A stretch of DNA of 47,686 bases, taken from positions 1-47,686 of IMG/VR virus record IMGVR_UViG_3300020451_000311. One strand, written 5' to 3'. Below are positions 27,050 to 47,659 of this stretch, piece after piece. The DNA is from a virus. The position numbers were made by a program, and so were the translations under genes. Positions within the stretch are counted from its first letter, which is position 1. Every line of letters starts with the position of its first letter. The notes under the pieces were generated by a model, which was given only the letters and a program-made list of their open reading frames with translations, had not been told where the DNA came from and made no database searches.

Positions 27050-27261
27050 TCTTTATCTTCTGCTGTATTAAGTTGATTACCTAAGTCATTTATATAGGCC
27101 TGTCTTGCAGTTTGAGTTAATGCTAACATATTCTGATAATGAGAAATCTGTTGGTCACATAATTGTAAGTGTCCAATAATAGATTTCTGCTCATTATTTA
27201 AATCTTCAACATCATGCTCAACTCCATCTATAGTGATAGTTGGTTGTAACTGTTCTGTCAT
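27046..27261 (-). CDS. Small conserved phage protein, DUF6447-like
   Basis: This 71-aa protein begins with a TITIDGVEHDVEDLNNEQK segment followed by a helix (LQLCDQQISHYQNML, TARQAYINDL). Proteins of this pattern (DUF6447) are common in marine T4-like phages; their function is unknown. It overlaps NrdB and the GT8-like gene by 4 nt each (ATGA). Confidence 0.65.
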   Translation of the reverse strand: MTEQLQPTITIDGVEHDVEDLNNEQKSIIGHLQLCDQQISHYQNMLALTQTARQAYINDLGNQLNTAEDKE

Positions 27262-28217
27262 TTAAATATATCCTGCCAATTTCCTTGTGTACTAGCCTTA
27301 GCATACTCGGTAGCACGGTTTTCAAAAAAGTTGGTATGCTCAACTGCGTTAACTTGCATATCTATCCAAGGCAACGGATTCTCCGTGCTTTTAAAGATAG
27401 CCTTCATACCTAGACCTAGTAATCTTCTGTCGGCTATGTATCGGATATATTCCTTTACTTCTGTCGCAGTTAGGTCTGGTACTGAAACTTTGTTGAAACA
27501 GATGTCAATAAATTTATCTTCTAATTCTACTGTCCTCTCTGCGGCACAGTAAATTTCATACTTTAATTTATCTGTCCACAGTTCTGGATTCTCTCTCATA
27601 AAAGTTCTAAATAGTTCTGATAAGCCTTCTACATGTAGACTCTCATCTCTAATTGACCATGTAACAATCTGACCCATACCTTTCATAAGATTGTGTCTTG
27701 GATAGTTTAGAAGTATAGCAAAACTACTAAATAGTTGTACTCCTTCTGTAAATCCACTATAGACTGCCATAGTCTTCGCCATGTCATGTTTTGTTTCCAT
27801 GTTAAAATCTGTTAGATAATCATGTTTATCTGACATCGCTTGTATATCAAAAAACTCTTGGTACATATCATCTGATTTACCTAAAGTTTCTAATAGTAAA
27901 GAATATGCTTCTTGGTGAACTGCTTCCATTGCAGCAAAACTCACAAGCATCATTCTTACTTCTGGTTGCTTGAATGTTGGTAGATAGTGTTTTGCATATC
28001 CACAACATACATCAACATCTGCCTGTGTGAAGAAACGAAAAATATTATCTATCAATAGTCTTTCATCATCAGTCAGTTTTTTGTTATAATCCTTTATGTC
28101 ATCTTGTAGTGGTACTTCGTCTGGAAGCCAGTGCATCTGCTGTTGCCTTTTGTACTTCTCAAAAGCCCACGGATAACTAAAAGGTTTGTAGTATTCTCTT
28201 TCTTCTAGTAAGTTCAT
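27258..28217 (-). CDS. nrdB: Ribonucleotide reductase class Ia, beta subunit
   Basis: This 319-aa subunit houses the di-iron tyrosyl radical cofactor that starts reduction of ribonucleotides. Glu98, His101 and Tyr105 (MEAVHQEAY) have the spacing of the iron ligands and radical tyrosine of class I NrdB. The gene starts one base after the stop codon of nrdA and is translated with it. It would supply dNTPs for phage replication together with the glutaredoxin encoded upstream. It is somewhat shorter than the E. coli protein but seems complete. Confidence 0.95.
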   Translation of the reverse strand: MNLLEEREYYKPFSYPWAFEKYKRQQQMHWLPDEVPLQDDIKDYNKKLTDDERLLIDNIFRFFTQADVDVCCGYAKHYLPTFKQPEVRMMLVSFAAMEAVHQEAYSLLLETLGKSDDMYQEFFDIQAMSDKHDYLTDFNMETKHDMAKTMAVYSGFTEGVQLFSSFAILLNYPRHNLMKGMGQIVTWSIRDESLHVEGLSELFRTFMRENPELWTDKLKYEIYCAAERTVELEDKFIDICFNKVSVPDLTATEVKEYIRYIADRRLLGLGMKAIFKSTENPLPWIDMQVNAVEHTNFFENRATEYAKASTQGNWQDIFK

Positions 28218-29984
28218 TTATCCCTCACAACTTAAACAATCTTGGTTTTCAAAAATTATTTCTCTTTTAGCAACGCTTGAAACATTATCTGCACGAGATA
28301 TTGCCTCACTGCGTAGGTAATATAAAGTTTTAAGGTTTTTTGCCCAAGCCACCATGTGTACATTGTGCAACTCCCCTTTGTTTACATCAGGTGGGAAAAA
28401 TAGATTCACACTCTGTGATTGACATATCATTGGTTGTCTACCTGAAGCGTGTTCTATTACCCAGCCTTGATTTATTTCTACGGCAGTTTTAAATGTATCT
28501 TTCTCCCACTGTGTTAGGAAGTCAAGATGTTGACAACTGCCTTTGTTTGTGATAATAGTTCTCCAAGTATCATCATCATTCTTTCCATGCTCTTCTAATA
28601 CTGCTTCAAGAAACTTGTTCTTTACTAGATTAGACCCAGACTTTGTTTTCTGTGTATAAGCATTTGCTCTAAATGGTTCGATACTCGGTGATGTATTACC
28701 ACAGATAATACTTGAACTTGCATTTGGAGCGATTGCTAGTAGATGTGCATTTCTTACTGTGCAAGAATCATCATCTGGACATGCTCCTCTTTCAACGGCA
28801 AGTTCTCTCGTTGTTTTCTGCGCTGATTCCTTGATGTGTTGAAACATCTCTAGGTTAGCAGCAGTCGCCATTGCACTCTCAAAAGGTATGCTAGACTTTT
28901 GTAAGTAAGCATGAAATCCCATAGCGCCAAGTCCTATGCTTCTCTCCCTCATAGCACTAAACTTTGCTTTATGTAGTTGCTCTGGCGCGTTCTCGATAAA
29001 TGATGTTAAGACATTATCGAGCATACGAATTAAATCAGGAATGAAAGCACCATGAGTTTTCCACTCGTCATAATACTCTAAGTTCACACTAGAAAGACAA
29101 CATACTGCTGTTCTCTCTTCATCTGTTGGAAGTGTAATCTCAGAACATAAATTACTTTGATGTACTTTCAATCCTTTCTTTTTCTGAAAGTCAGGTAGTT
29201 CAGAATTTACAGCATCACCAAACATAATGTATGGCTCTCCTGTTTCCATTCTATTTTGTAGTATCTTTACCCATAATGCACGAGCAGATACTGTTTTTGT
29301 AATCTCACCACTATGTGGGTCAATCAAATCCCAACTATCATCGAATCCTTCTTCTTTTGTTGCTCTATGTATAAGTTCCATATACTTATCAGTGACTACA
29401 ATACCATGGTGTAAGTTTAGACACTTACGGTTTGTATCTCCGCCTGTTGGTTTTCTTATATCTAAGAACTCTTCAATCTCTGGGTGGTCTATATCGAGAT
29501 ACCCTGCATAACTTCCTCTACGGGTTACACCCTGTGAGAAAGCAAGCATTTCTGCATCTACAACTTTTACGAAAGGTATTACACCAGTAGACTCAGAGCC
29601 TTTTGATGTCTTAGTTCCTGAAGAACGGACATGACCCCAATATCCACCAATACCACCACCAAAAGATGATAGAAATGCATTTTCAGTAAAGTGGTCTGTT
29701 ATACCCTCTCTACTGTCATCTACATAGTTAAGAAAGCAACTTATTGGTAATCCTCTTCTCGTACCACCATTTGATAGTACTGGAGTTGCGAACATAAACC
29801 AAAGGTTACTTACATAATCATACAAACGCTGTGCATGAGCATCGTCATCTGCGAATGTTTCTGCAGCACGAGCAAATGCTTCCTGAGGCGACTCTTCGCC
29901 TGGAATCATATATCTGTCTTTGAGAGTTGCTATTGCGAACTCATCTAAAAGACTATCTTTACTGTAATCAATTTTTACTGACAT
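28218..29984 (-). CDS. nrdA: Ribonucleotide reductase class Ia, alpha (catalytic) subunit
   Basis: This 588-aa catalytic subunit shows active-site residues Cys83 (PISCFL), Asn278-Cys280-Glu282 (SNLCSEI) and Cys295 (AVCCLSS), plus the C-terminal redox pair CLSC at 584-587 that receives electrons from glutaredoxin or thioredoxin. It is clearly shorter than E. coli NrdA (about 760 aa): the N-terminal ATP-cone is missing, so allosteric activity control by dATP is probably absent, a common feature of phage enzymes. It overlaps the flap endonuclease gene by 17 nt. Confidence 0.96.
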   Translation of the reverse strand: MSVKIDYSKDSLLDEFAIATLKDRYMIPGEESPQEAFARAAETFADDDAHAQRLYDYVSNLWFMFATPVLSNGGTRRGLPISCFLNYVDDSREGITDHFTENAFLSSFGGGIGGYWGHVRSSGTKTSKGSESTGVIPFVKVVDAEMLAFSQGVTRRGSYAGYLDIDHPEIEEFLDIRKPTGGDTNRKCLNLHHGIVVTDKYMELIHRATKEEGFDDSWDLIDPHSGEITKTVSARALWVKILQNRMETGEPYIMFGDAVNSELPDFQKKKGLKVHQSNLCSEITLPTDEERTAVCCLSSVNLEYYDEWKTHGAFIPDLIRMLDNVLTSFIENAPEQLHKAKFSAMRERSIGLGAMGFHAYLQKSSIPFESAMATAANLEMFQHIKESAQKTTRELAVERGACPDDDSCTVRNAHLLAIAPNASSSIICGNTSPSIEPFRANAYTQKTKSGSNLVKNKFLEAVLEEHGKNDDDTWRTIITNKGSCQHLDFLTQWEKDTFKTAVEINQGWVIEHASGRQPMICQSQSVNLFFPPDVNKGELHNVHMVAWAKNLKTLYYLRSEAISRADNVSSVAKREIIFENQDCLSCEG

Positions 29985-30819: not shown

Positions 30820-31246
30820 TCGTAAACTCCAATTTTTGTGTTTCTAAAAACTTTTCTGCAGGTAGCACATAGCAACCTAACCAGTTAAAGTACATATGTT
30901 TTTTGTAAAGTGGCTTTCTTGTCGTTGCCACATACCATTGTGAGTAGTTTTCTTTGAATATTAGCAAAGGTTCTTGTTGCATAACTTCTGCTTGTTTACA
31001 AAGTTTTGACCACCACCCAACAAAGGTGTTGCTCTTTTGTGTAAATATTTTATGATTAAATGCCATATCACGATAATGTTTTACTTCAATAGTAAATAGA
31101 TTATGTTTATGTGGCACCATCAGGTCACCTTTCACTTTACCACTACCCGAGCCAGGTGTTTGTGTAAAAGTCTCCCCTGTATGACGATGCAGCATACCTG
31201 CTACTTTTATTTCTGCATCGTTACCTTTTCTTCTGCTGTTAACCAT
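30758..31246 (-). CDS. PD-(D/E)XK nuclease, Holliday junction resolvase-like
   Basis: This 162-aa protein begins RRKGNDAEIKVAGML (Glu12), then KGDLMVP (Asp41) and FTIEVKHY (Glu54, Lys56), the complete E-D-ExK pattern of archaeal-type and phage resolvases and related nucleases. It would cut branched DNA made during replication and recombination together with the gp46/gp47-like pair encoded upstream. Substrate choice cannot be read from sequence. The upstream glutaredoxin gene ends at the start of this one. Confidence 0.8.
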   Translation of the reverse strand: MVNSRRKGNDAEIKVAGMLHRHTGETFTQTPGSGSGKVKGDLMVPHKHNLFTIEVKHYRDMAFNHKIFTQKSNTFVGWWSKLCKQAEVMQQEPLLIFKENYSQWYVATTRKPLYKKHMYFNWLGCYVLPAEKFLETQKLEFTNGDIIYEPWKADPEWELVDC

Positions 31247-31485
31247 TATGTCGGTATGCCAGCAAGTAGTTTGTCAAATTCAATATATCCTCCAATATGC
31301 TCTCCGTCTACCACAATTTGTGGGAAAGTTCTTGCCATTGGAAATAATACTTTTACATCAGAGGCATCAAACTCTTTACCCATCATGTTGTAAACTGCGT
31401 CATGCACCGCTTGGTGATTAGTAGCAAGCATTAATGCTTTCTTACATGCTGGGCAGTTTGGTATACTGTATATCTCAACTTTCAT
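31246..31485 (-). CDS. Glutaredoxin
   Basis: Starting at ATG 31485 (preceded by GGAATAATT) the 79-aa product has the redox site CPAC (Cys11-Cys14), the cis-proline motif TFPQIVVDG and the GG of GEHIGGY, as expected for glutaredoxin. It probably reduces the C-terminal cysteines of the phage NrdA. A longer frame from 31524 exists, but its extra residues overlap the DUF2061 gene and do not fit the family. Confidence 0.92.
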   Translation of the reverse strand: MKVEIYSIPNCPACKKALMLATNHQAVHDAVYNMMGKEFDASDVKVLFPMARTFPQIVVDGEHIGGYIEFDKLLAGIPT

Positions 31486-31666
31486 AATTATTCCATGTTC
31501 TCTCGTGCAGGTAATATGCAACAATCTTTATTCCCGTATCCGTACCCGCTAGGGCTGTGGCTCCGATTACACTTCCAAATATTGTGTAACCTACTGTGAA
31601 TGTAATGCATGTTGCTACTATCCTCCAACTAATTGTTTTTAATATTGTTTTCTTGTGTGAATCCAT
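31475..31666 (-). CDS. DUF2061 membrane protein
   Basis: The 63-aa product (start ATG 31666) begins MDSHKKTILKTISWRIVATC and has two hydrophobic segments and the C-terminal IKIVAYYLHERTWN box typical of DUF2061. Members are small inner-membrane proteins of unknown function; in bacterial genomes they can occur beside adenylylsulfate kinase (cysC) genes, and here one lies two genes downstream of an APS kinase-like gene, which supports a link to sulfate or surface sugar metabolism. It overlaps both neighbours. Confidence 0.8.
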   Translation of the reverse strand: MDSHKKTILKTISWRIVATCITFTVGYTIFGSVIGATALAGTDTGIKIVAYYLHERTWNNYES

Positions 31667-32006
31667 TCCTAATCGCAGTAGCAGATATCTCCTCAATATC
31701 TTTAGTAAAATGCTCCTGCTCTATCTTGTAACCAACATCACGACCATACACAATGTTCGTAATATTTGGCACTTCTAATATCTCAATAGTATTACTATTA
31801 TACCATTTTTTCCCAATGATGTCAAGAAGTATTTTCTCCTTTCGTTGCTCAAAACTGTAAGGATTACTTGACGAGCCGTCTGATGCTCTCAGTAATATTA
31901 CTACTTGACCAGTCTTGGAAAGTGCTCTTTTAAGTAACTTTCTATGGCCTTTGTGCCAGGGCTGATACCTTCCCAAGAGCATTGCAGTTGGTTTTGTCCA
32001 ATCCAT
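31629..32006 (-). CDS. Nucleotidyltransferase (HxGH, cytidylyltransferase-like)
   Basis: This 125-aa protein has the HxGH motif at 18-21 (GRYQPWHKGHRKLL) and the second signature ISATAIR at 107-113, both binding the nucleotide in the cytidylyl/adenylyltransferase superfamily (glycerol-3-phosphate cytidylyltransferase, NMN adenylyltransferase). The substrate cannot be told. The gene starts 106 nt inside the APS kinase-like gene in the -1 frame, at a run of five A, so a kinase-nucleotidyltransferase fusion by frameshift is possible. A role in making an activated sugar, alcohol or cofactor is likely. Confidence 0.8.
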   Translation of the reverse strand: MDWTKPTAMLLGRYQPWHKGHRKLLKRALSKTGQVVILLRASDGSSSNPYSFEQRKEKILLDIIGKKWYNSNTIEILEVPNITNIVYGRDVGYKIEQEHFTKDIEEISATAIRNGFTQENNIKNN

Positions 32007-32344
32007 TTTTCTATCCTTATATCGTACTCGCTGGGGTCTGGATACTCAAATAGTTTATTAGTATCTTCATACCGTCCTTCTTTAATCGTGTCCATAAATA
32101 TAGTATAGTCTGCTTGTAGTCTATGTCTATATTCTTTTTTAGGGCAGACAAAGTCTAGGATACCCCAGTTTTCTAAATTCATTCTATGAAATTGTCGTAA
32201 TCGACCTTCTTCGGAAAAGTCCCAGTCTTTGTGAAACTCTCTAATTGTGTCTGCACAATAATGCGGGACTTTGAACTTATATGCAAGTTCTGAAGCGAGA
32301 GTGGTCTTGCCAGAACCTGGCAGACCAAATATTAGTATTTTCAT
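31901..32344 (-). CDS. Adenylylsulfate (APS) kinase-like P-loop kinase
   Basis: This 147-aa protein has the Walker A motif GLPGSGKT at residues 7-14, then CADTIREFHKDWDFSEEGRL, which parallels the D-x-x-R and DxxFS-x-x-x-R pattern of CysC, and FMDTIKEGRYEDTNKLFE, similar to the region that contains the RD-x-K-x-LY motif. APS kinase makes PAPS, the sulfate donor for sulfotransferases, two of which are encoded at about 43-44 kb. The last 35 residues have no counterpart in the family and are read from the start of the next gene in another frame. Another small P-loop kinase role is possible. Confidence 0.68.
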   Translation of the reverse strand: MKILIFGLPGSGKTTLASELAYKFKVPHYCADTIREFHKDWDFSEEGRLRQFHRMNLENWGILDFVCPKKEYRHRLQADYTIFMDTIKEGRYEDTNKLFEYPDPSEYDIRIEKWIGQNQLQCSWEGISPGTKAIESYLKEHFPRLVK

Positions 32345-34158
32345 TCGCTAAGTGACGATATGTTCTCTTCTTTTGTTATTTCGATTTTGTGTAGCAATGG
32401 GTGTGTCCAACCGTGAGATACCATATATGTATTTAGGTTTTCTTCTTTCATCAATACTTCCACGACTTTTTCTTTACCTACTTCATCTAAGGCTTGATTA
32501 ACCTCGTCTAAAAATAGTACATTTATTTGACTTCGTGAAATAGAAGTCATGAGTTTTCGTATTGCAACTAGTGTTGCGATATTTACTCTAGCAAGTTCTC
32601 CACTTGATAAAGCAAGAATATCAATAATGTTTCCGTTATCAGATACTTCGACATTTAACTTGTCGTTCTCTACAACAAAATTGATACTGAATCTACCGTC
32701 ACTAAACTCTGCCAAATACTCATTTGTTAGTAGTTCTAGTTCTTTTACTAGCGATTCAATTTTGTATGCGAGGAGTCCATTGGTAGAAAATGCTTTTTTA
32801 AGTATCTCAAGAACCGATAGTTTATCCTCACAACTGTCAAGTCTACTTGTGAGGTCATTAGCCTCTTTCTCGAATTGTTCAGTTTGCTCCTGTACAATAC
32901 TAATTCTCGTATTATGTCTTTCTCTTCTCTCATTTTCTTCTATGACTTCCTCCAAAGCCTCCCTATCAGTGGCAATCCTTTGACGAAGTTCTTGAATCTT
33001 AACATTAAGTTCTTCTCTGTTAATAACTTGTGTTGGGAGGTTAATGTCAATGGAGGCTGCAAGCCTTTCGTATTCTTTGACTTTTTTGGTTGCTGTCCTA
33101 TGTATTTCATTGTGGCTTTGTATCTCCTCTATCTGCGCCTCTAGTTTTGCTACTTCTTTATAAATATAATTCATACTGTCTCTATGCTGTTCAAGTTGTT
33201 CATTTATGAACTGTACATCTATTTCTTGTTCACAAGTAGGACATATATGATTTTGTGTAGATAGTAATTTTTCATACTTCTCTATCATCTTTTGTTCTGC
33301 TCCACCCTCTCCAGACCATGCTCCTTTTGAACTAAGTTTCTGTGAAACATCTTGTAGTTCGGGATAAACTTTCAAATCATTCTGATATTTTTGAAAATCT
33401 ATGGATTGCATTTGATTTCTCAGAAAATTATTGTCGTTAATTTTTCGATTCTTTTCCGAGATATTTTCAAACTCTACTAATAACTTCTGTAAAGATTCTC
33501 CGTCTTTTTCCGACATTTTTGGTAAATCCATTTTTGATAGTAGACTAGTATCCTCAAGTTTGTTGTCTGTTAACCATTTTTCAATAGTACCAAGTGATGC
33601 GTTAACACTGGTTACTTCGTGAGAGTTTACCCTTGTTGCTTCCTTGAATACTTCAAAGTAATCTACATATTCTTCTAACTTTAACAAATCAATCAAGAAC
33701 TTTTTCCTGTTGGTATCTGTCGCTGTTAAGAACTGTAAACTAGCATTTGTATTCTGATATACTAATTGTGTGAAGGTCTTAAAATCTATGCCTAAAATCT
33801 CTAGGAGTGTTTTATAAGTGTTAGAGGCGGTATGCGAACTAATATCTTCGCCATTTTTTGTAAGTTTACACTTTAGTGTGGCTCTTCTTATAACTGAGAT
33901 ACAGTATTCATCAGAGTCCACTGTAAAAGATAAACTGATATTATAACCGCTACCGACGTATCGGTTCGCGATGTCAGCCTTTTTAACATTTTTACTATTC
34001 TTATTAAATAAAACTTCCTCTAATATGAGAGGGATTGAACTTTTACCTACACCGTTAGTTCCAACTAACTGAGTGAGAGTAGACTTATCTAAGTCTATCT
34101 CGTTGCCTTCTCCATAAGAAAAACAGTTATCCCATTTTAACTTCTGTAGAATAATCAT
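32341..34158 (-). CDS. Recombination nuclease ATPase subunit, SbcC/Rad50/T4 gp46-like
   Basis: This 605-aa SMC-like ATPase has Walker A GTNGVGKS at 33-40, long coiled coils on both sides of a zinc hook CPTC at 306-309, the ABC signature LSSGELARVN near 519 and Walker B NVLFLDEV near 545. With the SbcD/gp47-like protein encoded just before it, it would process DNA ends for recombination-dependent replication. Its start overlaps the end of that gene by 32 nt, and its end overlaps the kinase gene by 4 nt. Confidence 0.95.
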   Translation of the reverse strand: MIILQKLKWDNCFSYGEGNEIDLDKSTLTQLVGTNGVGKSSIPLILEEVLFNKNSKNVKKADIANRYVGSGYNISLSFTVDSDEYCISVIRRATLKCKLTKNGEDISSHTASNTYKTLLEILGIDFKTFTQLVYQNTNASLQFLTATDTNRKKFLIDLLKLEEYVDYFEVFKEATRVNSHEVTSVNASLGTIEKWLTDNKLEDTSLLSKMDLPKMSEKDGESLQKLLVEFENISEKNRKINDNNFLRNQMQSIDFQKYQNDLKVYPELQDVSQKLSSKGAWSGEGGAEQKMIEKYEKLLSTQNHICPTCEQEIDVQFINEQLEQHRDSMNYIYKEVAKLEAQIEEIQSHNEIHRTATKKVKEYERLAASIDINLPTQVINREELNVKIQELRQRIATDREALEEVIEENERRERHNTRISIVQEQTEQFEKEANDLTSRLDSCEDKLSVLEILKKAFSTNGLLAYKIESLVKELELLTNEYLAEFSDGRFSINFVVENDKLNVEVSDNGNIIDILALSSGELARVNIATLVAIRKLMTSISRSQINVLFLDEVNQALDEVGKEKVVEVLMKEENLNTYMVSHGWTHPLLHKIEITKEENISSLSE

Positions 34159-35089
34159 TAAATACTCCTATTATGTTTTTTATTTTATCATCATCAAGAC
34201 CTAGTATTTCTTTTAGATATAAAACTAACTCGTCCCCAATAGTCATTTCACTTGTTAAGTTAAGTCTAGCCTCTACTTCTCTCTTTACTACTTTCTTATC
34301 TAGCAAATCTGAATTTTTCACTTTTGCTAAGTCTTGCACATCACCCTCTAACTCATAAATAGTATGGTGCCAATCTGTTTGCACCATTTCGTCTGGGTCT
34401 GATACGGTTTGTCTAATTAACTGTGGCAAGTTAAATTCATGCCATGTCCAGTCATAATTTTCATCAATAAGTAGATAACCTGTCTTGACTTCATTTCTAT
34501 GAAATGATGTTGTCATTGGACTGCCTGGATACACAATATTTCTTTGAGTATTCTCGTGAGCATGTAAGTCTCCAGCAAAAACAGTCTTAAATCTGTCAAA
34601 TCTAGTTAAATCTACTTCAGGTACTACATGAGGTGGTATCTCTCCACGAACATGAGTAAATAGATACTCTACGGTATCTTCTATCTTTTCTATACTTTTC
34701 TTTTTATGTAAGTCCGCATACGGAAGTATTGCAGCCTTACCTTCTGTTCCTAAGTACCATGTAGTATCTACAACTTGTACTAAAGGATTGAGTTCTTCTG
34801 TAACTCTTTTTAAATTTGTAAAAAATGTTTTGTTTTTACGAGTTGCCTCGTGATTACCATCAAATATAATAGTTTCTACACTAACACCTTTTACAAAGTC
34901 AAAGTAGAGTGTTAACTCGTCCATAGAAGGGACTCGGTCGAACAAGTCCCCACCTATGATATGCAAGTCAACTTCTTTCTCCAGATTATGAATCTGTTCA
35001 AAGAAATGTTCGTAACGAGAACATGCCCAAGCAATGGGCACATTCTTTTGACCTAATTTTATATGCCAATCGGCAGTAAATAAAATCAT
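34127..35089 (-). CDS. Recombination nuclease subunit, SbcD/Mre11/T4 gp47-like
   Basis: This is a metallophosphoesterase nuclease. With ATG at 35089 (320 aa) the motifs are TADWH (Asp7, His9), GGDLFD (Asp48), GNHE (Asn79, His80) and later GDLHAHEN. This start forms an ATGA overlap with the stop of the peroxiredoxin gene; the longer frame from 35116 adds nine basic residues with no support. It forms the nuclease complex with the gp46-like ATPase. Confidence 0.95.
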   Translation of the reverse strand: MILFTADWHIKLGQKNVPIAWACSRYEHFFEQIHNLEKEVDLHIIGGDLFDRVPSMDELTLYFDFVKGVSVETIIFDGNHEATRKNKTFFTNLKRVTEELNPLVQVVDTTWYLGTEGKAAILPYADLHKKKSIEKIEDTVEYLFTHVRGEIPPHVVPEVDLTRFDRFKTVFAGDLHAHENTQRNIVYPGSPMTTSFHRNEVKTGYLLIDENYDWTWHEFNLPQLIRQTVSDPDEMVQTDWHHTIYELEGDVQDLAKVKNSDLLDKKVVKREVEARLNLTSEMTIGDELVLYLKEILGLDDDKIKNIIGVFNDYSTEVKMG

Positions 35090-35589
35090 GCTACGAAGTC
35101 TTCTCCTGGTTGCCATTCACAACCTGTGAGTCCACCTGCTTTTAGACTTTGTAAAGTTCTAAGAACTTCACTTGCGTTTCTTCCTGTATCGAGAGCGTTT
35201 ACGGATACATGCTGGATAATCCCTTCTGGGTCAACAATATAAGTTGCTCTATAACATACTCCATCTTCTGCAACTATTCCTAGTTCAGATGATAAAGGTA
35301 GTCCGCAGTCTGCTGCTAGTGTATGATTGATACCGCTTATTAGTTCGTTATCTCTCTTCCAAGCAAGTTTACAAAACTCGTTGTCGCCACTAAAACCACA
35401 GACTGATGCTTCTGATATAAGCATATCCATACCTGCAATCTCTGTTGGGCAAATAAAAGTAAAATCTTTTGGGTAAAAGTAAAACACTTTCCAACCATCA
35501 AAATCATCTCTACTTACAGTTCCCATATGGTTTTCAGAGTCTACACCCTGCAACTCAAAGTATGGGAAATATTCACCTACTCCAATCAT
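35086..35589 (-). CDS. Peroxiredoxin, AhpC/typical 2-Cys type
   Basis: This 167-aa protein has the peroxidatic site FYPKDFTFICPTE (P40, T44, Cys47) and the C-terminal resolving cysteine Cys157 in TGCEWQPGE, both hallmarks of AhpC/Prx1-type enzymes that reduce hydrogen peroxide and organic peroxides. It is a little shorter than bacterial AhpC (about 187 aa). It lies between the single-strand DNA-binding protein and SbcD genes with ATGA overlaps on both sides, so it is made with replication proteins. It may protect the infected cell or phage DNA from oxidative stress. Confidence 0.93.
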   Translation of the reverse strand: MIGVGEYFPYFELQGVDSENHMGTVSRDDFDGWKVFYFYPKDFTFICPTEIAGMDMLISEASVCGFSGDNEFCKLAWKRDNELISGINHTLAADCGLPLSSELGIVAEDGVCYRATYIVDPEGIIQHVSVNALDTGRNASEVLRTLQSLKAGGLTGCEWQPGEDFVA

Positions 35590-36218
35590 GATACGTCAAA
35601 CTCCTCTGATACTTCTTCAGGGGCGTCGCCACCGTCAGATGTTACTCTTCTCAACAATTCTAGTTGAGCGTCCGCTGTAGGTCTAGGAAGTACATCGTCC
35701 ATAGACTTTAAGTCAGCAATTAGTTCTTGCTGTTCTTCTGAAAGCGGTTCTTTTTTACACTTAAGAACTGATAGTTGATACTCAACATTGAATACCTGTG
35801 GCCCAGTCTTAAGTCTTTTAAATACTACATTCCAGCCATCTACTGGGTCTGTAGGGTCTCCTAAATCTTCCATTGCAACCAATATTTGGTCAAAGAGTTT
35901 TCTTTTTAGATTTAAAACTTTTACAGAATTGTCAGACAAATCTATACACTGGACAGCATATGCCCAACCGCATTTTAAATCAGGGTAGAAATCTCGAACA
36001 TGGTCATGCTCTTTATTATTGAAAGTTTCAGTTGTTCTGTCAAAAGACAAACACTCCATAGGAATGTTCTTGTTATTTTCGCCTTTTATCCAGTAAATAT
36101 ATCTAGGAAGTAAATCTCCTACCAATCTGATTTGGTGGTCTTCTTTACCTGCATAGTTATAAGTTTCGATTTTGCTCTTTTGAGCAGAACCTTTAGTTTG
36201 GTTAAATCCAATTGCCAT
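35586..36218 (-). CDS. Single-stranded DNA-binding protein, T4 gp32-like
   Basis: The pattern of this 210-aa protein (HQIRLVGDLLPRYIYWI, VLNLKRKLFDQILVAMEDLGDPTD, GWNVVFKRLKTG) fits gp32-type OB-fold proteins of marine phages. The tail is acidic (DGGDAPEEVSEEFD), as in proteins that recruit replication partners through the C-terminus. AGGAGAAAAAG lies upstream of the ATG. The zinc-binding cysteines of T4 gp32 are not evident, though Cys57, Cys83 and Cys92 occur. It begins the operon's DNA metabolism genes. Confidence 0.8.
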   Translation of the reverse strand: MAIGFNQTKGSAQKSKIETYNYAGKEDHQIRLVGDLLPRYIYWIKGENNKNIPMECLSFDRTTETFNNKEHDHVRDFYPDLKCGWAYAVQCIDLSDNSVKVLNLKRKLFDQILVAMEDLGDPTDPVDGWNVVFKRLKTGPQVFNVEYQLSVLKCKKEPLSEEQQELIADLKSMDDVLPRPTADAQLELLRRVTSDGGDAPEEVSEEFDVS

Positions 36219-36680: not shown

Positions 36681-37961
36681 CTATAAGACATCAACCTTAT
36701 ACCCCTCTTTCACATAGTAACCTAACCTATTATTTGCTTGTCTTGAAGCAGTCTTTCCTTTTAAATGAATATCTACTATAACAGGTTGACGCTTGCCTTC
36801 CTGTTCTCGTATTACTCTACCAATTAATTGTGTTAGTAGTGGCTCGTTATTAATAGGAGTTGCTAGAACTAAACAACTCAATTGATTAAGTGAGATACCT
36901 TCTGAGAAGATACTCTGTGTTCCAAAAAGAACATTATGACTTTTACCTATCTGGTTCATAGTCGTTTCCCTTTCTGTAAAGTCCATTTCGCCAGTTATAA
37001 ATGTGGCATTATCTCCTACTAATCTAGAGCAACTTTTTAGAAATGCTACTCTATCAGACACTACTAATACATTGTGACCTTGTGCTGCATACTTAGACGC
37101 AATCAAACTCACACTATTTATATATTCAGAGTTCTGTGTTAGATGATTTATTCTTTCCGCCCAAGGCGTATACGAACCATCTAAGAATCGAATCTCTGAT
37201 TTTATTACATGAATTGAAGGTATCATATAGTTTTCTTTAGGTGGTTTTAGTACATTATGACCAAAATAATCTCTAAAGACTACATGACGCCCATCTTTTC
37301 TTTGTAAAGTACCTGTCAAACCTATTTTATATCTTGCAGGCATTTCATCAATAATTCTAGTAAAAGTAGGACTACTGACATGATGCATTTCGTCTAAAAT
37401 AACTGTTCCGAATTCTTTTTTTATATCATCAATTCTTCGGTATAAAGTCTGAATATTCCCGCAGACTATCGGAGATGAGGTGTCAAAACTCCCCGACCCA
37501 ATTCTGCCTGCTTGTATTCCATAGGCTTTTTGTACTTCTTTTTCCCACTGATTTCTTAAGTTGGTTGTGTGGGTAACAACCAGTGTTTTCTGCCCAAGTT
37601 TACCAGCAATTGCTAAACTTGTAAATGTCTTTCCCCAACTAACCCAAGCGTTAATTATACTACTGTCATATACTTCATCATAGACTGCTTTCTGGCTTGG
37701 TCGTAAATCAAACTTAAACTCAGGAAACTCTACTTCCAAGTCATTCCGTTTATCGATTACTTCGTAATTTGTTGGGATTAAATCTTCTCTTCCCATAGGT
37801 ATAGAACATAAACCTTTTCTAATATGACGAATTGTTTTTATTACAATAGGTGGGTCTTGTGGCATACGGGGAGGTAATGTATAAGTCAGTTCGTTTTCTA
37901 AATTACGAAATAACTCTTCATTACCGTCTAAATATATACGATTACTTAATACTGCTTTCAC
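36681..37961 (-). CDS. DNA helicase, superfamily 2, T4 UvsW-like
   Basis: The motifs of this 426-aa protein are in order: RPSQ (Q motif-like, 87-90), motif I AWVSWGKT (105-112), motif II VILDEMHH (187-194, DExH), motif III LTGTLQRKDG near 215, and motif VI QLIGRVIRE near 385. The Walker A lacks the first glycine of GxGKT/S but keeps GKT. UvsW-type helicases unwind branched and R-loop DNA and help the switch to recombination-driven replication. It overlaps the asparagine synthase gene by 4 nt. Confidence 0.9.
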   Translation of the reverse strand: MKAVLSNRIYLDGNEELFRNLENELTYTLPPRMPQDPPIVIKTIRHIRKGLCSIPMGREDLIPTNYEVIDKRNDLEVEFPEFKFDLRPSQKAVYDEVYDSSIINAWVSWGKTFTSLAIAGKLGQKTLVVTHTTNLRNQWEKEVQKAYGIQAGRIGSGSFDTSSPIVCGNIQTLYRRIDDIKKEFGTVILDEMHHVSSPTFTRIIDEMPARYKIGLTGTLQRKDGRHVVFRDYFGHNVLKPPKENYMIPSIHVIKSEIRFLDGSYTPWAERINHLTQNSEYINSVSLIASKYAAQGHNVLVVSDRVAFLKSCSRLVGDNATFITGEMDFTERETTMNQIGKSHNVLFGTQSIFSEGISLNQLSCLVLATPINNEPLLTQLIGRVIREQEGKRQPVIVDIHLKGKTASRQANNRLGYYVKEGYKVDVL

Positions 37962-39472
37962 TTACACATCTCTTCTAAATATAGTAATTGTTCTTTCTGT
38001 TCTCTAGTTTGTACTTCTTTATTGTTATTATCCCACGGACTAGACCAGCCTATTTTCTGAGACCTTAATCTTACATGCTCAGGTATATAATCTTTCATGC
38101 CCTCTCGTAACAACCATTTCCATTCGCCTGGGTGGTAGTCAGGGTTATCTTTTAACTTATCCGTGCCTTTTATACTCATTATGTATTTTACAAATGATTG
38201 TGTTAGAAATACAGGTCTGCTTTCCATACCAAACATACCACAAGTTTGGTCTGTTGTAAGTATGTTTTGCTCTGATGTTGTAAGTAAATCATGGAATAAA
38301 GTATTATTTATTAAATCATCTCCAAAAGACTTTGTAGGAAACCACCTACGATGCTTATATTTAACATAGTTCATAGTTTCTAGATTATACTCATCACTAA
38401 ATCTTTTTTCATGATGTTTATATCCAGTTACTAATTCATCTGCACTATCTCCTGTTAGTATTACTTTACAACCATCTGCTGATGCTTGTTTACACATCTC
38501 ATATCTAGGTGAAGTTCTGTTTTTATCTGCCCACAAGAAGTGTGTTTTTTCTATCCAATGCATATGATTCATATATCTCTTTGCAGGATATGTCATAACT
38601 TCATTTACATCATATCCAAACTCTAGACAAGTATGTTTTGCTTTACCAAACTCCCTTCTAAATCCTTCATGATCCCACTTTCTTCCTCTTTGTTCGTGGT
38701 ACTTACAAGAATAAATATGTAAATCTAAGTCACTATCTTTTACAGCAGAAAATGCCATAGTGCTATCAAACCCGCCACTGAGAAACAGTCCAGTTTTCTG
38801 TATGTTCTTTGCAACTTTATTAATAGACTCTATTAGTTTATCTTTAAATTCAGGTAAATGTAAATCATGTGATTCTATTTTATAGTATTTCCATAAGTTT
38901 TCTGTTCGTATTGTGCCTTTTCTAGTATTTAAAGTTACTACTTCACCAGGTGCTACTTTATGAATATACTTCCATTGTGTCATTCTACCAAACCATTGTT
39001 TAGTTTTCATGTGCATTTCCCAGTTTCTTCTATCACTTTCTTTTGTTAAGAAACTTCGTAAAGAAGTAGAAACTTCTATATCTTTACCTTTCTTGTAATA
39101 CCATAAAGGTTTTGCACCAAAGTGGTCTCGAACTAGAGTAATATCTCCTGACTTTGGATTATAATGTATTATTGACCCATGCCAGTCACTCCATTCTAGT
39201 ACTTTTCTACCATAGGTTTCATACATATTTGCTAACCACATAGTATCATTCTGTATGGTAGAATCGTACATTTCTCCATTAAATGCAATAATATTACCAT
39301 TTGGTGTTTCTATAGGTTGAAACTGTTTCTTTCCGTTTATATCTAATAAACAGTGCCCAATAGCAAACTCTTTATTGCTCCAAAACCTACTACCATCAGG
39401 CCCACGAAACTCTTGTTTGCTCAACATGAGTTCTACATTCTGTGTGTTAGTTGTGCCTACGAATCCGCACAT
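37958..39472 (-). CDS. asnB: Asparagine synthase, glutamine-hydrolysing
   Basis: This 504-aa protein has both domains. The N-terminal class II glutaminase starts at Cys2 with RGPDG at 23-27 and NGEMYD at 65-70; the C-terminal synthetase has the PP-loop SGGFDST at 232-238 and LTGDSADELVTGY later. It converts aspartate, glutamine and ATP to asparagine. Phage copies occur in some large marine phages. One speculative use here is the supply of Asn for the very Asn/Thr-rich fibre. It could also modify another substrate, as related enzymes do in peptide or sugar pathways. Confidence 0.93.
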   Translation of the reverse strand: MCGFVGTTNTQNVELMLSKQEFRGPDGSRFWSNKEFAIGHCLLDINGKKQFQPIETPNGNIIAFNGEMYDSTIQNDTMWLANMYETYGRKVLEWSDWHGSIIHYNPKSGDITLVRDHFGAKPLWYYKKGKDIEVSTSLRSFLTKESDRRNWEMHMKTKQWFGRMTQWKYIHKVAPGEVVTLNTRKGTIRTENLWKYYKIESHDLHLPEFKDKLIESINKVAKNIQKTGLFLSGGFDSTMAFSAVKDSDLDLHIYSCKYHEQRGRKWDHEGFRREFGKAKHTCLEFGYDVNEVMTYPAKRYMNHMHWIEKTHFLWADKNRTSPRYEMCKQASADGCKVILTGDSADELVTGYKHHEKRFSDEYNLETMNYVKYKHRRWFPTKSFGDDLINNTLFHDLLTTSEQNILTTDQTCGMFGMESRPVFLTQSFVKYIMSIKGTDKLKDNPDYHPGEWKWLLREGMKDYIPEHVRLRSQKIGWSSPWDNNNKEVQTREQKEQLLYLEEMCK

Positions 39473-39570
39473 ATGTAATGTCCATGAAAACTATAGTCAC
39501 ACTCTGTTTTTGGTAAACTTATAATTACTATTACAACTAATATAACTATCATTATAACCCATTTCTTCAT
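39457..39570 (-). CDS. 37-residue membrane peptide
   Basis: ATG at 39570 overlaps the stop of the DUF2693-like gene as ATGA and the frame ends with TAG at 39457-39459, inside the start of the asparagine synthase gene. The product begins MKKWVIMIVILVVIVIISL, a positively charged N-terminus with a single hydrophobic segment, followed by a short polar tail with two cysteines. The translational coupling and the membrane pattern support a real gene. Function is unknown; an inner-membrane inhibitor or superinfection factor are possibilities. Confidence 0.6.
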   Translation of the reverse strand: MKKWVIMIVILVVIVIISLPKTECDYSFHGHYICADS

Positions 39571-39803
39571 TCTACAACTGTCCACTTAGTGATAGTATCT
39601 TCTTGTATATCTTCCCATCTTTTGAACTCTACATCATAGCATAACAACTTATCGCCTGTCTGCCTTGCTACATGATTAGGTACATTCATATACTTGTCAT
39701 TTAAAGTATACTCTCTGCTTTTCATATCACCACTATTTAGTGATTGAAACTCTATACATACTATGTGATTTTTAAGTTTTTCTCTTAATTTTTCAATATC
39801 CAT
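39567..39803 (-). CDS. Small DUF2693-like protein
   Basis: This 78-aa protein has LREKLKNHIVCIEF at the N-terminus and KLLCYDVEFKRWEDIQEDTI at the C-terminus, matching the pattern of the DUF2693 family (small Sm- or SH3-like beta barrel) common in T4-like phages, where the final part reads as a 'V/W-D-x-E-x-x-x-W-R' box. Function unknown, probably nucleic acid or protein binding. It overlaps the radical SAM gene by 19 nt. Confidence 0.65.
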   Translation of the reverse strand: MDIEKLREKLKNHIVCIEFQSLNSGDMKSREYTLNDKYMNVPNHVARQTGDKLLCYDVEFKRWEDIQEDTITKWTVVE

Positions 39804-40558
39804 TTTCTTTTCTTTATCCTCGATAAATCTTTGTTTGTTGGTTTTCTATTACAAGAACTACAAACTTTATACTTAGTTCTATTTCCCTCTGCTAAATCAA
39901 TCTTCATCTGTTTTAGCACAGGATTATTATGCCAGATATCAAAAAAATTATCTTCTTTGATATTACCAAATATATTGGTATCACTCCAGTCATTCGAACA
40001 AAGTTGAATACTACCGTCATGGTGTATCCAGCCTCGTGATATAGGCAATGCACACGGTAACGGTACTGTTTTTTGTTTTAGTCCCATAAATAATTCATTT
40101 CTATTTTGTATTTGAATAGGAGTAACTTCCCATTCATCAGGTTCAACGCTTTGATCCCAAAATCTTACATCTGCCCAAGGAAATGCTTCTTTTCTTCTAG
40201 CAGTTTCTTCTTTTGTAGAGTAAGTATTTAGTATCATAACATCAAACATCTCTAATAATTCTTTTTTCTTTTCCCACTTATACCCATTTGTTAAGATACG
40301 AGTTTTATACTTTCTATGTTTATGATGTAGTATCTTTATCATAGCAGAATGGTCAGGGTGAAGACTATTTTCACCTCTACCAGACCAACAAATAAAACCT
40401 GTATATCCCCAATCATTTACAGTATCTATGAAGTCTTTGAACATTTTCAAAGGCATATATTCCTTAATATTAGGGTATCCATGACTTCTAGGACAATAGT
40501 TGCAACTTTCATTACAAATCCCACACACATCTATATTTATTACTAGTGGGTCTAACAT
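39785..40558 (-). CDS. Radical SAM protein with SPASM/twitch-type C-terminus
   Basis: The radical SAM cluster motif of this 257-aa protein is CNESCNYC (Cys15, Cys19, Cys22). The C-terminal third has CALPISRGWIHHDGSIQLC followed by FGNIKEDNFFDIWH and VCSSCN, a SPASM-like auxiliary cluster region as in peptide- and sugar-modifying enzymes. The core between is short. Substrate cannot be predicted; neighbours are a MazG-like protein and asparagine synthase. A role in modifying a phage or host peptide, sugar or nucleotide is possible. It overlaps the MazG-like gene by 7 nt. Confidence 0.88.
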   Translation of the reverse strand: MLDPLVINIDVCGICNESCNYCPRSHGYPNIKEYMPLKMFKDFIDTVNDWGYTGFICWSGRGENSLHPDHSAMIKILHHKHRKYKTRILTNGYKWEKKKELLEMFDVMILNTYSTKEETARRKEAFPWADVRFWDQSVEPDEWEVTPIQIQNRNELFMGLKQKTVPLPCALPISRGWIHHDGSIQLCSNDWSDTNIFGNIKEDNFFDIWHNNPVLKQMKIDLAEGNRTKYKVCSSCNRKPTNKDLSRIKKRKWILKN

Positions 40559-42248: not shown

Positions 42249-42930
42249 AGTCTTTTCCTTCCTGTATTCTAAACTGAGCATTTCTTGCTGTTGTAAACGC
42301 ACTCTTACGCTCTATACACTTACTACATTTGCCACATGGAATATAATTTACGATTTTTTCTCCAACTTTAGCAATTTTACTGTATGCAGCACAAGACCAG
42401 ATTAGGTCTGCTACTTCTTTATTCTCTCGTAACAAGATTGATGCTATCTCACTCTTAGTCAAAAATTCGAATGGGAATAGATTTACAGGTATTCTTGTGA
42501 GTGCCTCCATTGTAACTCCGTGTCTATCCAGACTTCCTGCGTACTCACATGCTTGTATCATACTCGCATATCTTAAACCTTGTCTCTGTCTCCAAGAATC
42601 TTCACTATTACTACCCCACACACAGTATTTCCACTCTATATGTGGGTTTGCAACTACAAGAGTTGAACAAGCAGTCTGCCACTGAAACACAGCCGTAATC
42701 GGCTTACTTCTTGGTAAGTCTACTTCATCTACAATTAGTCTTACTCCTAGTAAGTCACACTGCTTTTGTGCAAAAAACAAGTCTGCCTCTGCAAAATCTT
42801 TGTTCTTATTAAATAAATGTACACCCACAGGTTTCAAACCTTTTTTGAGTGACCACAACAAAGCAGCAGCACACTCCATGCCACCGCTAACTGTTACTAG
42901 TGTATCTACATTTCTTAAATCATCTTTCAT
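42226..42930 (-). CDS. QueC-like PP-loop protein (7-cyano-7-deazaguanine synthase-like)
   Basis: With ATG at 42930 (234 aa) the protein begins with a PP-loop SGGMEC at 15-20 and has a C-terminal zinc site of QueC type (SCAAYS, then PCGKCSKCIERKSAF). QueC makes preQ0, which some phages place in their DNA as protection from restriction. The usual SGGxDS is altered to SGGMEC, and no QueD, QueE, FolE or DpdA gene is visible here. It might use host preQ0 precursors, or have a different amide- or thio-forming reaction. A longer frame with TTG at 42945 is possible. Confidence 0.7.
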   Translation of the reverse strand: MKDDLRNVDTLVTVSGGMECAAALLWSLKKGLKPVGVHLFNKNKDFAEADLFFAQKQCDLLGVRLIVDEVDLPRSKPITAVFQWQTACSTLVVANPHIEWKYCVWGSNSEDSWRQRQGLRYASMIQACEYAGSLDRHGVTMEALTRIPVNLFPFEFLTKSEIASILLRENKEVADLIWSCAAYSKIAKVGEKIVNYIPCGKCSKCIERKSAFTTARNAQFRIQEGKDYESSYKD

Positions 42931-43576
42931 ATCCGAACTGCTCAAAATCTTGTTTATAAAACTCTCTTACAAACCCTTTTACTTCATCTAAGAAATCAAA
43001 CTCAGCATAATACTTTCTAGATTTATTACTGTGTGTTTCTTGTAAGTTAAGTGCTTTCCATATTGTTTTATCTTCTAGTCTATGCACTTCTACTTCTTCT
43101 CTAATATATGTCCATTGTGGATAGAATAGCATATCTAACTCCATCTGTGGAGCAGACTCCCATAAGTCTGGTCTATCTATACAATTTAAGAAGTCGCCTT
43201 TTGGTAAATACTTCATACAATACAAAGTCCACGGGTAAAACTCTTTCTCTACGAGTCCCGCATTTCTTAAATGTTTCCACATACTTTTCCATCTTTCGTA
43301 TGGGTTTCTAACTTGTGTATAATACTTATAATTAGGATATAACATCTTATATCTATCGTAGGTGGCATGTAAATTAATTATAAGTGTGCCTTTGTCTTTG
43401 TCTTTCTTTGGCGGTCTGCGTCCTTCTACGGACATACCTCTTTTCCATGTATGTGAGGCAGCACCTACGAACTGCTCCATATATTTAGGTCTACTTGCTA
43501 ACCAAGCATGAAATACACTATACCCTCCGCACTTTGGTATGTGTATGAAAATCTTTTTATCGTCATGTAATATCAT
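42920..43576 (-). CDS. Sulfotransferase (first of two)
   Basis: This 218-aa protein has the 5'-phosphosulfate-binding loop IFIHIPKCGGYS at 9-20 and a 3'-phosphate-binding segment TQVRNPYERWKS at 87-98, which together identify PAPS-dependent sulfotransferases of the carbohydrate (family 2) type. The C-terminal part EVHRLEDKTIWKAL is shared with the neighbouring gene, so the two are paralogues. An APS kinase-like protein encoded at 31.9-32.3 kb could make the donor. The acceptor may be a surface glycan. Confidence 0.85.
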   Translation of the reverse strand: MILHDDKKIFIHIPKCGGYSVFHAWLASRPKYMEQFVGAASHTWKRGMSVEGRRPPKKDKDKGTLIINLHATYDRYKMLYPNYKYYTQVRNPYERWKSMWKHLRNAGLVEKEFYPWTLYCMKYLPKGDFLNCIDRPDLWESAPQMELDMLFYPQWTYIREEVEVHRLEDKTIWKALNLQETHSNKSRKYYAEFDFLDEVKGFVREFYKQDFEQFGYER

Positions 43577-44093
43577 ATCCGAACTCTTTGAAATCGCACT
43601 TGTAGTAATGTCTTACTAATTGACGACTTTCCTCAGTCCATTCTATAGGTTTTCGTTTGGACTTATTTTTATGTACTTCTATCTTTCCTAGTACTTTCCA
43701 TATTGTTTTATCTTCTAGTTTGTGTACTTCGCAGTTTGCTGGTATAAAATGATACTGTGTAATCCACATATAAGGTTTTATTACTGACTGTAAGTCACCC
43801 TGTAATCTAGGTGTAATCTGTAGTTGTGTCCACTCATTGAACTCAATAGTTAAACCATGATGTTTTACATAATAAAAATAGATGGACTCCCATCTATCAA
43901 ACGGATTTCTTACTTGTGTAATATACTTTATATCTGGATATAAATAGTCTATAACTGGCTCATAGTTTCTTGCTGAATGATGTGTACTATTTCCTATAAC
44001 AGATGTACCTCCGCAACGAGGTATATGAAAGAAAAAATAATTTCCTATTATATTCTGTTCAATATCTCTCTTATCGTTATACTTTATTCCCAT
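43563..44093 (-). CDS. Sulfotransferase (second of two, shorter)
   Basis: This 176-aa protein has PAPS motifs FFHIPRCGGTS at 21-31 and TQVRNPFDRWES at 59-70. The spacing between motifs is about 40 residues shorter than in the neighbour because a loop is missing. The C-terminus (EVHKLEDKTIWKVLGK, then KEFGYD) parallels the neighbour. It overlaps DNA polymerase by 17 nt and the first sulfotransferase by 14 nt. Likely a tandem duplicate that has diverged in acceptor choice. Confidence 0.85.
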   Translation of the reverse strand: MGIKYNDKRDIEQNIIGNYFFFHIPRCGGTSVIGNSTHHSARNYEPVIDYLYPDIKYITQVRNPFDRWESIYFYYVKHHGLTIEFNEWTQLQITPRLQGDLQSVIKPYMWITQYHFIPANCEVHKLEDKTIWKVLGKIEVHKNKSKRKPIEWTEESRQLVRHYYKCDFKEFGYDIT

Positions 44094-47583: not shown

Positions 47584-47659
47584 TGGTGGAGCATGGGAGA
47601 CTCGAACTCCCGACCTCCTGCGTGCAAAGCAGGCGTTCTCCCAACTGAACTAATGCCCC
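47584..47659 (-). tRNA. tRNA-Ala (anticodon UGC)
   Basis: A 76-nt cloverleaf reads on the minus strand. The acceptor stem GGGGCAT pairs with ATGCTCC and has the G3-U70 pair that identifies alanine tRNAs. The anticodon stem is CCTGC/GCAGG with loop TTTGCAC (anticodon TGC). The T arm is GGGAG/CTCCC with loop TTCGAGT. Discriminator A and CCA are encoded. It reads GCA, a frequent codon in the Ala-rich fibre genes of this phage. No attachment site or integrase is visible. Confidence 0.96.

Follow-up and report, generated by a model that had tools for sequence, protein, structure and literature searches.

The closest described relatives of the peroxiredoxin considered here are the AhpD-type AhpC proteins of M. 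tuberculosis, M. bovis and B. thailandensis (structures 2bmx and 7bz6), which carry two resolving cysteines in a C-x-C tail. In the B. thailandensis enzyme these residues, Cys 171 and 173, are interchangeable as resolving cysteine, with Cys173 the more important, and AhpD is a better reductant than thioredoxin (PMC6626918). Canonical AhpC, as found in E. coli and Salmonella, is AhpF-dependent and has its resolving cysteine four residues before the tail tryptophan (W-4). On the viral side, phage-encoded thioredoxin-fold peroxiredoxins are represented by Synechococcus phage S-SCSM1 and by AHP1-type phage proteins, and Vibrio phage PG07 (Demerecviridae) offers a reference replication module in the order D10, small ORF, D11, D12, D13, D14 and flap endonuclease. 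The searched literature contained no description of the phage peroxiredoxin family reported below.

The window, by which we mean the whole stretch of DNA analysed, is the 47,686-nt (47.7-kb) linear IMG/VR record IMGVR_UViG_3300020451_000311, probably a fragment. A preliminary description of this DNA had placed an AhpC-type peroxiredoxin gene within a replication operon, with its strand unstated; the gene, prx, is real, lies at 35086..35589 on the minus strand and encodes 167 aa. Both ATGA overlaps claimed for it can be read in the sequence: the SSB stop and prx start share tcATGAtt (35586..35589, minus strand), a junction type that recurs in relatives, and the prx stop and SbcD start share gcATGAtt (35086..35089, minus strand), with the 3' end of prx in an ATGA in 97 of 141 relatives.

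The neighbouring genes, all on the minus strand, comprise a D10-like DNA helicase (36681..37961; phrog_16, 6.2e-61), a D11/gp32-like single-strand DNA-binding protein, SSB (35586..36218; phrog_1607, 2.4e-27), the T5 D12-like nuclease subunit SbcD (34127..35089; phrog_100, 7.5e-42) and the T5 D13-like SbcC (32341..34158; phrog_77, 7.3e-93). The mechanical SbcD reading frame begins upstream, at 35116, and the ATG at 35089 yields the conserved start MILFTADWH. Downstream of SbcC follow a glutaredoxin with the motif CPAC (31246..31524; PF00462, 3.5e-10), a flap endonuclease, and NrdA and NrdB of a class I ribonucleotide reductase (27258..29984, with ORFs 28218-29984 and 27258-28217 read from the sequence), whose downstream position is conserved in relatives. 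PolA of the window is 45% identical to that of T5-like enterophages, SbcC 36% identical to that of Vibrio T5-like phages and SSB 29% identical to D11 of PG07, and the replication module is T5-like; it shares its gene order with PG07, which differs in having no peroxiredoxin between D11 and D12.

Several further features of the window deserve a record of their own. Two overlapping ORFs at 31629-32344 (minus strand), one kinase-like and one cytidylyltransferase-like, correspond to consecutive halves of phrog_10255; a gene that is fused elsewhere thus appears to be split in two here, by a true split or a frame error. The replication cluster also holds an asparagine-synthase-like protein (PF00733), only 42-53% identical in most relatives holding it, together with a radical SAM/SPASM protein (37958-40558, minus strand), and, between PolA and a QueC-like gene, two adjacent sulfotransferase-like ORFs with the motifs FIHIPKCGG and FFHIPRCGG (42920-44093, minus strand). 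Elsewhere in the window, a 925-aa ORF (20912-23689, plus strand) that follows a tail-like gene and consists of short repeats rich in T, N and S, and a region of repeated AITSAKIA-like units (17911-20682) are both probably fibre proteins, and a tRNA-Ala (tgc) lies near the record end (47584-47659, minus strand).

At the protein level, prx matches Pfam AhpC-TSA (E=9.3e-21), with Redoxin under its cut-off and no match among PHROG profiles. Its best PDB sequence match is M. tuberculosis AhpC (2bmx, 3.6e-28), and an AlphaFold2 monomer model (pLDDT 91.4, pTM 0.88; certainty lowest in the C-terminal tail with Cys157) finds the same structure by Foldseek (TM 0.87), the top PDB matches all being AhpC/Prx1. 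The peroxidatic Cys47 (codon 35449..35451, minus strand; PKDFTFICPTE) sits in a PxxxTxxC motif present in 123/123 distinct viral proteins, a constancy that is partly by construction, as the motif was required for extracting them. The resolving Cys157 (codon 35119..35121, minus strand; GLTGCEWQPGE) lies two residues before a tryptophan (W-2), and it and the surrounding GLTGC-x-W are likewise constant in all 123; both cysteines are thus intact and numbered as first proposed. The catalytic arginine R114, in the triplet RAT of a late beta strand, is found in every one of the 123 viral proteins and does not vary in an alignment of 50 rows that includes cellular AhpC. Two further cysteines recur, Cys112 in 114/123 proteins and Cys73 in 123/123, the frequency of the latter in cellular rows being biased by the inclusion of GDNEFCK among the search patterns.

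Equally informative is the comparison with known subfamilies. A thioredoxin fold with PxxxTxxC, a catalytic arginine and a C-terminal resolving cysteine places the protein with the Prx1/AhpC type, and the fold and peroxidatic site are shared with canonical AhpC, from which it is set apart by the W-2 rather than W-4 resolving cysteine and by a TIGR03137 score of 92.1 bits against a cut-off of 272. With AhpD-type AhpC it shares fold, PxxxTxxC, catalytic arginine and the second cysteine of the C-x-C tail: the tails of cellular relatives close with C-P-C-N-R or a similar sequence, and C157, invariant in the joint alignment of 50 sequences, corresponds to the second cysteine, whereas the first is replaced by threonine in the phage proteins (Thr at W-4 in 114/114 distinct proteins fitting the tail pattern). 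At 167 aa the phage protein is also shorter. A single resolving cysteine at the second tail position is chemically plausible by analogy, because in B. thailandensis the two tail cysteines are interchangeable and the second matters more. The S-SCSM1 and AHP1-type phage proteins, at 12-17% identity and TM 0.59-0.66, are probably members of other Prx subfamilies. A grouping with non-peroxidase family members was looked for, and both sequence and structure neighbours proved to be peroxidases; the conserved motif, the confident AhpC-like model and purifying selection all uphold the original 2-Cys AhpC-type assignment. Judged by its residues, prx would code for a 2-Cys peroxiredoxin of the AhpC type with a complete catalytic set, akin to the AhpD-type (C-x-C) branch of bacteria and resolving through the second tail cysteine only.

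Scans of IMG/VR returned at least 599 relatives of prx, of which a distinct set of 123 proteins and 141 loci was examined. SSB and/or SbcD border prx, as at the T5-like site, in 91/141 distinct loci; 17/141 have T4-like surroundings, in which a phrog_298 exonuclease lies upstream and/or a matching small gene downstream; and 16/141 have Hsp20 upstream and/or a matching gene downstream, in contexts akin to T4-like phages such as HTVC008M. The remaining 17/141 fit neither placement scheme (one only through a glutaredoxin neighbour). Five of the unmatched loci were read, with family assignments checked on L307 and L272: in four, a late transcription regulator, a gp59-like helicase loader and gp32 SSB lie downstream, which marks the T4-like gp33-gp59-gp32 neighbourhood as one prx site, and the fifth adjoins UvsX and a DnaB-like (gp41-like) helicase. 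Altogether, prx occurs in several genomic settings, mostly, though not only, beside replication or recombination genes. In two T4-like marine contigs, CsgG/curli-secretion-like products are encoded downstream of prx as candidates (L073, 14748-16271; L080, 7353-8869).

For the gp32-like protein of L307, the nearest relatives are those of Pelagibacter phage HTVC008M and Methylophilales phages (54-55%), and these isolates gave no match in the isolate-phage search for prx. That search returned 18 records, all below 60% identity and the listed ones at 27-45%, with no genuine copy among verified records. The one match inspected, GenBank "Microcystis phage MaAM05" (MW495066; L162), was rejected as bacterial DNA labelled as phage, since rplA, rplK, nusG and secE stand in a row beside it; most of the other records are short or lack annotation.

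Evidence on the history of the gene comes from its rate of change, its exchange and its loss. The occurrence of prx at 141 distinct viral loci, together with a median pairwise dN/dS of 0.106 (1567 pairs), confirms a real gene and excludes a chance reading frame; purifying selection is strong, and the frame is open in the copies read. When proteins from 40 T5-like loci are compared in pairs, the distances for SSB, for SbcD and for the product of the upstream ORF track one another well (r 0.81-0.93), whereas prx distances correlate with theirs at only r 0.13-0.24. Loci L020 and L021, for example, have prx 94% identical with SSB at 65% and SbcD at 73%, and in such pairs nucleotide identity jumps abruptly at the prx ATG; L002 and L040 present the converse, with nearly identical flanks and a divergent 5' part of prx. 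Because prx distances ignore the flanks and identity breaks at its ATG, prx alleles are swapped at a fixed T5-like site irrespective of the genes on either side.

One lineage, moreover, lost prx cleanly at the ATGA junction. Its five contigs (11.6-29 kb) have identical SSB, joined straight to SbcD by one ATGA, and yielded no prx elsewhere; the two nearest SSB relatives of this lineage carry the gene. As prx and SbcD both begin ATGATT, deletion between short repeats would be a simple candidate explanation. With its alleles exchanged and one lineage doing without it, prx is an exchangeable and dispensable accessory gene rather than part of the core machinery.

The closest non-viral copies come from two genomes of the SAR86 order, in which prx lies downstream of a TonB receptor, followed in one (L169) by an oxyR-like gene and katG. 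On account of this context the SAR86 copies are cellular genes; they share with the phage proteins a GC-x-W tail (LTGCSW in L168, PTGCSW in L169), Cys73 and Cys112, and differ in being cell-encoded at a peroxide-defence-like locus instead of a replication operon. Identity stands at 65-68% (L169/L082). In the tree the SAR86a/b copies nest within the viral radiation, with T4-like copies as their neighbours (support 89/89), and AU tests reject neither a single viral clade (p 0.13) nor a single T5-like clade (p 0.30), so no direction of transfer is claimed. The L165-type SAR86 protein had no viral relatives in the searches, and the window SSB found no match in 203 SAR86-order genomes and 28 of another order; SAR86 as host of the window phage is only a lead. 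A broader proposal, judged rather unlikely as a whole, would treat the gene as a virus-diversified AhpC with its resolving cysteine at the second tail position, an exchangeable one-gene cassette of T5-like and T4-like marine phages that sits mostly in replication/recombination modules, was donated by phages to SAR86, and is selected for redox protection of viral DNA synthesis.

The favoured explanation, with a probability of about 0.68, is that the peroxiredoxin is made with the replication machinery, is reduced by a host donor and lowers peroxide in the infected cell during DNA copying, as the product of an accessory gene. Through the ATGA overlaps prx would be translationally coupled to SSB and SbcD and, given that coupling, presumably co-transcribed with them, so that its product would be synthesised alongside the replication proteins. 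Cys47, once oxidised by a peroxide (H2O2 or organic) or by peroxynitrite, would form a disulfide with Cys157 on the other subunit. This disulfide would then be reduced by a donor from the host, either thioredoxin or AhpD, and the infected cell would hold less peroxide while DNA is copied. The sequence shows the gene itself, its motifs and overlaps, and the selection, exchange and loss that it has undergone, while we infer catalysis, reductant, timing and benefit. Peroxide protection, first proposed with a possible importance in sunlit surface water, is, as a proposal, the best functional reading of prx.

The choice of reductant bears directly on the foremost rival, in which the peroxiredoxin and the phage glutaredoxin form a dedicated redox pair that spares host thioredoxin for ribonucleotide reductase. 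Glutaredoxin (PF00462) occurs in 10/13 carrier records, in the window on the same strand and 3.5 kb from prx, and thioredoxin was found in none of the 13, which are mostly fragments. Three carrier fragments, however, show no glutaredoxin, its position near nrdAB sets it beside its ordinary client, and 4/5 prx-less contigs keep it (the fifth is only 11.6 kb). Because the prx-less lineage retains it, glutaredoxin is doubtful as electron donor and likely serves the nearby ribonucleotide reductase, and the dedicated pair is unlikely. Nor was an ahpD-like gene, encoding an AhpD-like (CMD-domain) protein, found in the same 13 mostly fragmentary records, a possible departure from the AhpD-type bacterial systems; host AhpD is possible. 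With neither thioredoxin nor an AhpD-like protein found there, a host donor is more likely, its identity as thioredoxin or AhpD being assumed. Of the two reductants first suggested, host thioredoxin or phage glutaredoxin, the second is thereby weakened and a host donor favoured.

Another rival, which we consider quite improbable, makes scavenging secondary and has the protein protect or regulate co-encoded replication and recombination proteins as a redox sensor or chaperone at the fork. It is favoured by the repeated occurrence of prx near replication or recombination genes across several phage settings, and by the two cysteines conserved beyond the catalytic pair; yet the catalytic residues are fully conserved, prx can be lost, and alleles move freely between phages whose SSB is only 65% identical, a mobility that speaks against a tight interaction with partner proteins. 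The 16 loci with prx beside Hsp20 are a counter-case to replication placement, and a position among replication genes may provide timely expression alone, with no role at the fork. That prx rides along as a passenger, without influence on infection, agrees with its exchange and its absence from one lineage but is very improbable in the face of strong purifying selection, open frames, an exact operon fit and carriage by several phage lineages.

Recurrence beside replication genes in unrelated phage groups and cassette swapping suggest that peroxide control in infection is useful, not essential. Phage AhpC of this type has at least 599 copies in IMG/VR against none in verified isolate records or the searched literature. 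The swapping of a single gene at a constant position bounded by ATGA illustrates clearly how accessory genes are traded within a core phage operon, and the natural prx-less lineage with its prx-bearing close relatives supplies a comparison pair, so that peroxide control would stand as a recurring and testable feature of aquatic phage infection.
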